45,095 bases of DNA from Thermoleophilaceae bacterium. Lineage in GTDB: Bacteria > Actinomycetota > Thermoleophilia > Solirubrobacterales > Thermoleophilaceae. The notes beneath the pieces were generated by a model. That model saw nothing but the letters and a program-made list of their open reading frames with translations. It did no database searches and was not told the DNA's origin. The stretch lies in NCBI GenBank assembly GCA_025928345.1, contig JAICJR010000004.1, forward strand, positions 1 to 45,095, read 5' to 3'. Below are positions 2,460 through 10,118 of this stretch, piece after piece (the stretch's first letter is position 1; the number at the start of each line of letters is the position of its first letter). Made by a program: the position numbers and the translations under genes.

Positions 2460-3188
2460 CTACTGGCTCGCGGTGCTGGTGATCGCGCTCGTGCTGGTCG
2501 TGGCGCTCGTGCTGCTGCTCGAACGGCGCGACTCCGGCTCGATCGGAGTGGTGAGCTTCGCGAACACCACGATCCGGTGAGACGCGCTGTAGAGCGGATG
2601 GCAGGCGCTGAGGACCAGCCGCTGATAGCCGACGTTGCGCGTGACCCAGAGGGCCGTGGGCTCGACCACGCGCGCCTCCTGCACGCGGTAGGTGAAGCTC
2701 CCGTACGGCATCTGAAGCACGATCGGGTCGCCTGCGTGAAGCTGGTCGATCGTCTTGAACGGCGCGAGGTAGGTGGTGCGGTGGCCGGCGATCGCCACGG
2801 TGCCGGGCTCGCCGGGCAGCGGGGTGTCCGGATAGTGCCCAGGACCACTGCGCAAGCTCGCCGAGTCCGTGCCCTGCACCATCACGTACGAGCGGCCGAG
2901 CGTGGGCAGGCGGATGCGTCCGAGCGCATGGCCGTCCTGCACGCGCGCCTGCTCGTGGCGGGCGAGCGCGGCGAGCCGGCCGCGGCGCACGCGGGCGAGC
3001 GCGCGCTCGTCCGCGGCGCTGAGCCGGTCGAGCGTCTTGAGCTGGTTCTTCAGCCGCGCCTGATCGCGGTGCGCGACCAGCGCCGACACCGGCTCCTGCC
3101 ACAGCAGCGTGACCACCACGTCGGCGATCAGCAGCGCGCCGGCGACGACCAGCACCGACGCGATGAAACGACCGATCGCGCGCATCAC
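2460..3188 (-). CDS. Class E sortase
   Basis: N-terminal TM helix; GHRTTYLAPF catalytic His, LVLSACHPLYSASHRIVVFA catalytic Cys/Arg region. Confidence 0.85.
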   Translation of the reverse strand: MMRAIGRFIASVLVVAGALLIADVVVTLLWQEPVSALVAHRDQARLKNQLKTLDRLSAADERALARVRRGRLAALARHEQARVQDGHALGRIRLPTLGRSYVMVQGTDSASLRSGPGHYPDTPLPGEPGTVAIAGHRTTYLAPFKTIDQLHAGDPIVLQMPYGSFTYRVQEARVVEPTALWVTRNVGYQRLVLSACHPLYSASHRIVVFAKLTTPIEPESRRSSSSTSATTSTSAITSTASQ

Positions 3189-5069: not shown

Positions 5070-5166
5070 GAATAGGCGGATGGATGCTCCGCTCGCGAAC
5101 AGACGCCTCACACAAATCCTAGGTTGCCCGGCTCACATTCAGCGCATGCGTAGCGTTTCGTAGACA

Positions 5167-5631
5167 GTGAGCTTGCCTCCGTTCCAAGCCTTTCTTGACG
5201 CTCAGCGGGAGACGGTCTTCCGCTATCTGGTTGCCATGATCGGCCCGGACGATGCGGAGGATGTCTTCCAGGAGACCTTCATCTCGGCGATGCGGGCCTA
5301 TCCGCGGCTGAAGCCCGATTCGAACCTGCGTGCGTGGGCGCTGACGATCGCGAACCGCAAGGCAATAGACGCGATCCGGGCGCGCAAACGGCGGGCCCTG
5401 CCGGTGGAAGACGTGCCGGAGGTTGCCGTGAACGACGGCCATCCGGTCGAGCAGGGGGACGTGTGGACCGCCGCGCGCGACCTGCCCCCTTCGCAGCGGG
5501 AGGCGCTGCTCTACCGCTTCGCGGCGGATTTGCCATACAGCGACGTGGCCGCGGTGCTCGGTACGAGCGAGGAGGCGGCACGCCAGCGGGTGAGCGAGGG
5601 GATTCGACATTTGAGAAAGGCGATGGCATGA
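5167..5631 (+). CDS. ECF-type RNA polymerase sigma-70 factor
   Basis: DDAEDVFQETFISAMRAYPRL (region 2), ALPPSQREALLYRFAADLPYSDVAAVLGTSEEAARQRVSEG (region 4) patterns; GTG start. Confidence 0.9.
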   Translation: MSLPPFQAFLDAQRETVFRYLVAMIGPDDAEDVFQETFISAMRAYPRLKPDSNLRAWALTIANRKAIDAIRARKRRALPVEDVPEVAVNDGHPVEQGDVWTAARDLPPSQREALLYRFAADLPYSDVAAVLGTSEEAARQRVSEGIRHLRKAMA

Positions 5632-6230
5632 CCAACATCGAGAAGGATCTGGCGCTGCGTCTGCCGCCTGACGCCTCGCGTGTGCTGGCGGAGCGCTTCG
5701 CGGCGCGCGCAGAGGACGAGGGACTCGTCGATATCGCCTACACCGTGGAGGACTCGCCTGTGGGCCCGCTGCTGCTGGCGGCCACGAAGCGGGGGCTCGT
5801 GGAGCTCGGCTTCGAGGGGCAGAAGGAGCTCGACTTCTACCTCGAGCGCCTCAGCCGGGGCGTCTCCCCGCGGATCCTGGAGGCGCCGGCGCGGCTCGAT
5901 CCCGTGCGGCGCGAGCTCGACGAATACTTCGAGGGGCGGCGGACACGGTTCGACGTGCCGCTCGATTGGAGCCTGTCGAAGGGCTTCACCCAGCGCATCC
6001 TGAGGGCCACCGCGAAGGTGCCTTACGGCGAGGTGAGCACGTACCGGCAGATGGCCGCGAAGGCCGGCAACGAGCGCGCCGTGCGCGCGGCGGGCAATGC
6101 GCTCGGCGCGAACCCGATTCCGATCGTGGTGCCCTGCCACCGGATCCTCCGCACCGGCGGGTCGCTCGGCGGCTACGGTGGCGGGCCGGAGCGCAAGGAG
6201 TTCCTGCTCAGGCTGGAGGGCGCGCTCTAG
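5628..6230 (+). CDS. Methylated-DNA--protein-cysteine methyltransferase (Ogt-like) with N-terminal extension
   Basis: Active site IVVPCHRIL, RAVRAAGNALGANP; ATG at 5628 overlaps the sigma factor stop by 4 nt. Confidence 0.93.
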   Translation: MTNIEKDLALRLPPDASRVLAERFAARAEDEGLVDIAYTVEDSPVGPLLLAATKRGLVELGFEGQKELDFYLERLSRGVSPRILEAPARLDPVRRELDEYFEGRRTRFDVPLDWSLSKGFTQRILRATAKVPYGEVSTYRQMAAKAGNERAVRAAGNALGANPIPIVVPCHRILRTGGSLGGYGGGPERKEFLLRLEGAL

Positions 6231-6234
6231 TGCG

Positions 6235-6843
6235 CTAGTGCTGGCCGTCTGAGCCGGTGGCCGCGGCGGGTGGCCGCGACTCCTCGGCGAGCGACGTGAT
6301 CGCGAGGTCGCCGCGGGCGGCGTCTTCCAGCACCTCTGCGGCCTCCTCGGCCGAGCGCGCGTACAGCTCGACGAGCATGTGGATCACGATCTGGTCGCCC
6401 TCGTGCTTGTGAAAGCGCACGTGGGTGAAGAACTCGCGCGTGCCGTGGTCGCCGAAGGCGCCGAAGGCGAGCGAGTCGGCGGCGTCAGGCCCCGAGCAGC
6501 TCTCCACCTGCTCGCCGTCCACCGTCACCGTGCAGGAGGCCACCCAGGGCGTGCCGGCAACCATTCGCTCCCAGCGATCCTCAACGGCCTCGATCTTGCT
6601 GATCCGGCGGCCGTTCTCCTCATAGAAGGTGAGATTGAGGTGCGGCTGGTCGTGGAGGCAGTCGAGGCACTGGACGACGGCCTCCTGCACCTCCTCGACC
6701 GGGTCCACCGCCTCGGCGGTCTCCGGGTCGACCTTCAGCACGCCCTCGTAATGAACCTGAACCTCGAGGTTCTGAGACCAGCAGCGGTAGCACCGAAGCC
6801 AGCTCGAAGCCGTGCCTATCGAGTCCCTGGCTGAACCTTCCAT
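6235..6843 (-). CDS. Hypothetical protein with CxxC pairs (putative zinc ribbon)
   Basis: LRCYRCWSQ...VVQCLDCLHD two CxxC motifs; high-quality ORF between two annotated genes. Confidence 0.6.
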   Translation of the reverse strand: MEGSARDSIGTASSWLRCYRCWSQNLEVQVHYEGVLKVDPETAEAVDPVEEVQEAVVQCLDCLHDQPHLNLTFYEENGRRISKIEAVEDRWERMVAGTPWVASCTVTVDGEQVESCSGPDAADSLAFGAFGDHGTREFFTHVRFHKHEGDQIVIHMLVELYARSAEEAAEVLEDAARGDLAITSLAEESRPPAAATGSDGQH

Positions 6844-9305: not shown

Positions 9306-10118
9306 TTAGCCGCGCAGCAGTGTCAACACTGACTGTGGCAGCTGGTTGGCCTGCGCGAGCATGCTCGTGCCGGCCTGCTGGAGGACCTGCAGCTGAGTCA
9401 GGTTCGACATTTCAGACGCCATGTCGACGTCCTTGATCTGGCTCTCGGAGGAGGTCAGGTTCTCCTGGTACACGCCCAGGTTGCTGATCACGTGCTCGAG
9501 CCGGTTCTGGACCGCACCGTAGGTGGAGCGCATGTCGCTCACCGCGTTGATCGCGGAATCGATCTCGGCGATGTCCTGGGTGTCCGTGGCCGAGAGCTGG
9601 AACGCGTTCGACGGGATCGCGCTGCCGTAGAGCGTGGCGGTGGTGACGGAGATCTCCTCGCCGTCGTTCGCGCCAACCTGGAACGTGATCGTCACCTGGC
9701 CGTTCAGCAGCGGGATGCCGTTGAACTGAGCCGTGTTGCCGATCCGCTCGATCTCGCAGGCGAGCTGGTTGATCTCGGACTGGATGGCCGTCTGGTCCTG
9801 AGAGGACAGCGTGCCGTTCTTCGACTCGACCGCCAGCTCGCGAACACGCTGAAGCATCGAGTGAACCTCGTTCAGCTGACCCTCGGCGGTCTGCACGAGC
9901 GAAACCGCGTCCTGGGTGTTCCGGTTGGCCTGGTCGAGACCGTTGATCTGAGCCGTCAGCTTCTCGCTGATCGCGAGTCCAGCCGCGTCGTCAGCCGCCG
10001 AGTTGATGCGGTAGCCCGAGGACAGGCGCTGCATCGACTGCTGGAGCTTGTTCTGAGTCAGCTCCAGCTGACGGTGGGCGTCGAACGCCTCGATGTTGGT
10101 GTTGATCCTGAGTGACAT
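9306..10118 (-). CDS. fliC: Flagellin (270 aa, D0/D1-type core)
   Basis: MSLRINTNIEAFDAHRQLELTQNKLQQSMQRLSSGYRINSAADDAAGLAISEKL ... C-terminal SQIKDVDMASEMSNLTQLQVLQQAGTSMLAQANQLPQSVLTLLRG. Confidence 0.98.
   Translation of the reverse strand: MSLRINTNIEAFDAHRQLELTQNKLQQSMQRLSSGYRINSAADDAAGLAISEKLTAQINGLDQANRNTQDAVSLVQTAEGQLNEVHSMLQRVRELAVESKNGTLSSQDQTAIQSEINQLACEIERIGNTAQFNGIPLLNGQVTITFQVGANDGEEISVTTATLYGSAIPSNAFQLSATDTQDIAEIDSAINAVSDMRSTYGAVQNRLEHVISNLGVYQENLTSSESQIKDVDMASEMSNLTQLQVLQQAGTSMLAQANQLPQSVLTLLRG

Follow-up and report, generated by a model that had tools for sequence, protein, structure and literature searches.

The window, by which we mean the whole stretch of 45,095 nucleotides that was analysed, contains a two-gene operon in which a gene for an ECF sigma factor is followed by a gene for an O6-methylguanine-DNA methyltransferase (Ogt). 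The operon is composed of the following features:

5132-5157, + strand: putative ECF-type promoter CTCAC-N17-CGTT, with the -35 CTCAC at 5132-5136 and the -10 CGTT at 5154-5157, 9 nt ahead of the GTG at 5167.
5167-5631, + strand: ECF sigma factor gene, with GTG start at 5167 and TGA at 5629-5631; 154 aa with sigma2 and sigma4 domains.
5628-6230, + strand: ogt gene, with ATG at 5628 and TAG at 6230; 200 aa, O6-methylguanine-DNA methyltransferase.
5628-5631, + strand: ATGA start/stop overlap (translational coupling), in which the TGA of the sigma gene overlaps the ATG of ogt; this -4 overlap is kept in 140 of 180 pairs of the short-extension type.
5628-5735, + strand: N-terminal extension of Ogt, MTNIEKDLALRLPPDASRVLAERFAARAEDEGLVDI; 36 aa, candidate sigma-binding segment, with helices predicted by AlphaFold at residues 3-8 and 16-30.

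The sigma factor matches the Pfam families Sigma70_r2 (57 bits) and Sigma70_r4 (42.1 bits) and scores 78.7 bits on TIGR02937 sigma70-ECF, against a cut-off of 42.9. It has the composition of an ECF sigma factor, with only the sigma2 and sigma4 domains and a size in the ~150-200 aa range of the class. The Ogt matches DNA_binding_1 (106 bits) and Methyltransf_1N (51.7 bits), and its PCHR active site is intact (~6132-6143), so that both domains and the catalytic cysteine of an Ogt are present. Since these domains start at residue 37 and solved Ogt structures align to the protein only from residue ~37, around 36 residues are additional to the usual protein, compared with the ~33 that a preliminary description of this DNA had counted ahead of the usual Ogt start. 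The same description had reported the 4-nt ATGA overlap, which is located at 5628-5631, and the lack of a separate anti-sigma ORF, which also holds, the sigma gene having a GTP-dependent PEPCK gene in divergent orientation on its upstream side and ogt a convergent, unrelated ORF on its downstream side. This latter ORF (6235-6843, - strand, 202 aa) lies right after ogt and gave no match to Pfam families above the cut-off, its weak XRCC4_CC match reaching 20 bits against 27. Directly past the PEPCK gene there is an ORF resembling a class E sortase (2460-3188, - strand), and an ORF with a flagellin N- and C-terminal signature is found at 9306-10118 (- strand). Rfam identified no RNA elements in the window. 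Regarding the sigma factor itself, an ECF43-like protein controlled by phosphorylation was ruled out because the DAED motif in region 2.2 is intact, and a ClpXP di-alanine degron because the protein terminates in AMA and has no AA degron.

Searches with both proteins revealed that close homologues of sigma and Ogt are adjacent in ~100 of the 151 genomes of the order, and that the pair extends to further orders of the phylum and to Chloroflexota, which disposes of the concern that it might not be conserved beyond this strain. The loci retrieved comprised 100 from the order, 54 from the wider phylum and more from Chloroflexota, and 200 paired loci were counted. Most of the short-extension pairs without the -4 overlap overlap by 1-25 nt, and a catalytic PCHR or ACHR can be read in 197 of the 200 loci, the C-terminus being unreadable in the other three. 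Given the -4 overlap and the conservation of the catalytic motif over 200 loci, the arrangement goes beyond chance. Neither a third conserved gene nor a separate anti-sigma was found at the 200 loci, where the best neighbour is common to at most ~24, and the unit is therefore a two-gene cassette. Natural sigma-Ogt fusion proteins were absent from these 200 loci, stop codons separating the in-frame cases. Four more distant sigma matches in the phylum sample (L246-L249) occur without Ogt. At two loci, L145 (G099:C600) and L097 (G122:C104), the sigma gene is accompanied by two Ogt-like genes that are arranged in tandem or lie near each other.

How is the cassette transcribed? In a de novo spaced-word search of the regions ahead of the sigma genes, CTCAC-N17-CGTT was found as an exact match at 70 of 101 loci and at none on the reverse strand, and a relaxed version of the motif was present in 144 of 200 loci, compared with 6 and 2 in the reverse-complement and coding controls, respectively. 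The sigma start codon usually lies 8-12 nt past CGTT, which implies a leaderless mRNA. CTCAC-N17-CGTT promoters are predicted to be recognised by the sigma factor, and the promoter at 5132-5157 is probably autoregulated by the sigma factor that it serves. Wherever the pair is present, the TCTCAC-N17-CGTT motif also offers a handle for tracing the regulon in that genome.

In 14 genomes, the pattern TCTCACR-N16-CGTT matched at 24 sites, against 4 for the reversed pattern used as control. Seven of these matches correspond to sigma operons and the remainder include, at leaderless distance, Ada_Zn-Ogt genes in two genomes, one Ada_Zn-AlkA, one solo Ogt and two EamA genes; four repair genes in 17 non-sigma matches is far above a rough chance estimate. 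The motif is found 8-12 nt before genes encoding Ada_Zn-Ogt (L402, L403), Ada_Zn-AlkA (L382/L411), solo Ogt (L416), AlkA (L366, L399) and EamA (L404, L414, L425). In addition, alkA is the next gene after the pair in L166 and L159, and eamA comes after the pair in 14 loci. EamA genes behind this promoter are found in G138, G144 and G842. The recurrence of EamA both after the pair and behind the promoter suggests that an exporter belongs to the alkylation regulon. That relatives have the motif ahead of alkA, of Ada-domain genes and of Ogt genes, and that alkA follows the pair in some genomes, bears out at the sequence level the earlier idea of an alkylation-responsive unit, and the pair very probably represents an alkylation-defence regulon driven by the ECF sigma factor and including its own operon.

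The genome from which the window comes contains 47 matches to CTCAC-N17-CGTT, of which 30 were inspected; most of them are not followed by a gene start at leaderless distance and seem to be chance occurrences. Among the loci inspected, a promoter at leaderless distance was found only at the sigma operon and at a gene for an EamA (DMT-family) protein (L337, G000:C24:14920-14945), in which CTCAC-N17-CGTT lies 8 nt before the ATG, with a weaker case at an MFS transporter gene. The Ada-AlkA gene of this genome has no such promoter at leaderless distance. A stricter class-wide pattern, with the spacing to the ATG fixed at 8 nt, produced only 4 matches, one of which belongs to an EamA gene. The MFS transporter gene (L345, G000:C117:10292-10317) carries a full TCTCACA-N16-CGTT site 13 nt before its ATG and is a possible second target.

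The part of the cassette that calls for an explanation is the N-terminal extension of Ogt. Paired Ogts have 24-70 residues ahead of the Ogt core motif, compared with ~7-14 in solo Ogts. The first part of the extension is variable, its N-terminal half differing greatly between relatives, and the part adjacent to the core (RA..EGLLDVAY) is conserved. The Ogt of L063, which is nested in the paired clade of the tree and beside whose gene no sigma was detected, has no extension. In the sequences compared, the extension is restricted to sigma-linked Ogts.

In one Chloroflexota clade (L255, L285-L307), an HxxxCxxC finger is present at the N-terminus of the Ogt encoded after sigma in 24 of 24 loci. 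Three of six scanned proteins of the clade exceed the zf-HC2 cut-off of 22.2 bits (L301, 33.4; L302, 36.0; L298, 23.7), L290 and L307 score just under it, and L064, with the motif present, is clearly under it at 13.2 bits. In L301 the zf-HC2 domain begins the protein at the -4 overlap. With an Hx3Cx2C motif or zf-HC2 domain beside an ECF gene, these Chloroflexota homologues belong by sequence with the class I (ZAS / zf-HC2) anti-sigma factors, and the solved chains nearest to the finger are, weakly, the anti-sigmas DdvA and RsrA. Many of the zinc-finger systems share the sigma promoter motif, except that their spacer is one base shorter. In a further locus, L257, the finger is degenerate (CxxC), and L266 has a short extension without zinc ligands; both cluster with four zinc-finger systems in the sigma tree (92 SH-aLRT) but not in the Ogt tree, and neither tree firmly unites the zinc-finger lineage with the short-extension lineage. 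In characterised cases, domains of the zf-HC2 type beside ECF genes act as inhibitors (PMC7406223, PMC4598750), and zinc and non-zinc anti-sigma domains occur mixed within ECF groups (PMC7406223).

Residues 1-36 of the window Ogt contain no Hx3Cx2C motif, no zf-HC2 Pfam match and no Cys/His zinc ligands, and their similarity to the zinc finger is undetectable; lacking zinc ligands, the extension falls outside the zinc-binding class I. In this respect, CnrY, the class II anti-sigma of CnrH, demonstrates that two short helices without zinc suffice to hold an ECF sigma (PMC7406223, PMC4598750). Two helices are likewise predicted for the 36 residues of the extension, and the likeness is one of predicted helices; CnrY, however, serves metal sensing through CnrX. 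Foldseek searches with both models returned ordinary Ogts over the core only and nothing for the extension. The preliminary description had suggested that the extension might be an anti-sigma segment. This suggestion is indirectly supported by the homologous pairs that have zf-HC2 in the same place and by the limitation of the extension to sigma-linked Ogts, and it receives no extension-specific signal from mean-field DCA, in which the extension takes part in 4 of the top 20 sigma couplings compared with 3.1 expected (171 sigma-Ogt pairs, Neff 111, an alignment too shallow to be informative). On the basis of the zinc-finger fusions and the extension restriction, we regard it as fairly likely that Ogt acts as an anti-sigma, the extension being the putative segment that binds sigma.

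Could Ogt be simply an output of the system? In such a scenario, ogt is one member of a repair regulon driven by the sigma factor, the activity of sigma is set elsewhere (by another transcription factor, by protein stability or by intrinsic autoinhibition) and the gene overlap serves co-expression. The shallow DCA and the absence of a recognisable anti-sigma domain in the window extension fit it, and there is precedent in other ECFs without anti-sigma, whose control is transcriptional or by proteolysis (PMC8999054). We nevertheless find this scenario rather unlikely: in the same type of pair an anti-sigma domain of the zf-HC2 type is fused to Ogt, the extension accompanies only sigma-linked Ogts, the coupling of the two genes is kept while their neighbours vary, and the window sigma has an intact DAED motif and no C-terminal AA degron. 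A second possibility is that this Ogt subfamily uses the extension as a structural helix, for stability, for handling DNA or for translational coupling, with no relation to sigma. AlphaFold models the window Ogt alone with high confidence in the extension (block means of 87-91 over residues 11-30), so the extension may simply belong to the Ogt fold, and its top DCA coupling, from the same shallow alignment, is internal to Ogt (23-196). Against a purely structural role, Ogts that have no sigma partner, L063 within the paired clade among them, lack the extension, and a zinc-finger anti-sigma domain takes its place in one lineage; we consider such a role improbable. Methylated Ada activates E. 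coli promoters, and this precedent for methyl-triggered activation would also permit a methylated or DNA-bound Ogt to co-activate sigma through the extension, without releasing it, which the conservation and extension data fit equally. This we judge very improbable in view of the inhibitory function of zf-HC2-type domains by ECF genes in characterised cases (PMC7406223, PMC4598750) and of an extension without visible DNA-binding or activation domain.

Returning to Ogt as the anti-sigma, the zf-HC2-Ogt pairs, the sigma promoter, its presence at repair and EamA genes and an extension limited to the pairs lead us to favour, by a modest balance of probability, an autoregulated alkylation-damage regulon under the ECF sigma, with Ogt as sensor and probable anti-sigma. 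The operon and its overlap, their conservation, the promoter motif, the composition of the predicted regulon, the zinc-finger fusions and the restriction of the extension are read directly from the genomes; the steps of the model would be as follows. The sigma factor would transcribe its own sigma-ogt operon from the leaderless CTCAC-N17-CGTT promoter and would also drive alkylation defences that vary between species, namely alkA, Ada-domain repair proteins, extra Ogt and EamA exporters. Because they are translationally coupled, sigma and Ogt would be produced in step. Unmethylated Ogt would then restrain sigma via its N-terminal segment, which would be the zf-HC2 domain in one Chloroflexota clade and a short two-helix segment in the family of the window. 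When methylated by a DNA lesion, Ogt would change shape or be removed, free sigma would increase in proportion to damage, and the operon would replenish Ogt until the damage is cleared. Whether methyl transfer is the trigger that releases sigma is, in our estimation, evenly poised. We give a similarly even chance to the broader proposal that a suicidal Ogt serves as anti-sigma in such a way that one Ogt spent on O6-methylguanine frees one sigma. The cell would thereby count lesions stoichiometrically, and the adaptive response would be governed by an ECF sigma instead of Ada in parts of the phylum of the window and in parts of Chloroflexota. If true, this would amount to an anti-sigma titrated by damage and to an adaptive response independent of Ada.

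The association with Ogt is already recorded for group ECF122 of the Casas-Pastor classification, whose conserved neighbour is a 6-O-methylguanine-DNA methyltransferase and whose mechanism is to be characterised according to a 2022 review (PMC8999054). The window pair resembles this group, as judged by the neighbour description, in having an ECF sigma, a methyltransferase neighbour and no recognised anti-sigma gene. Neither a mechanism nor a regulon, a promoter or a zinc-finger fusion is given in the review, and we found no prior description of zinc-finger-Ogt fusions, of the promoter or of the regulon in open-licence PMC papers. The fusions, the promoter and the alkA/ada/eamA targets provide a testable model for this uncharacterised Ogt-linked ECF group (PMC8999054). 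As in the class I zinc anti-sigmas RsrA and ChrR, the partner is soluble and encoded right after the ECF gene, and the Chloroflexota homologues have an N-terminal Hx3Cx2C; the sensor here is, in contrast, a suicidal DNA methyltransferase, and the window version has no zinc motif. What the system shares with Ada is a presumed signal, the transfer of a methyl group to a repair protein, and a regulon of Ogt and AlkA, whereas the window Ogt, in which only the two Ogt domains were found, has neither Ada_Zn domain nor AraC-type HTH and is not a member of the Ada family, control being exerted through a sigma factor. The order retains Ada-type AlkA fusions, among them L411, which is preceded by the promoter described here. 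At this locus (L411 / L382, G040:C95) the Ada zinc domain is joined directly to AlkA with no AraC HTH between them, an ECF-type promoter precedes the gene and another Ogt follows it; here the sigma factor seems to have taken the place of the regulator domain of Ada.
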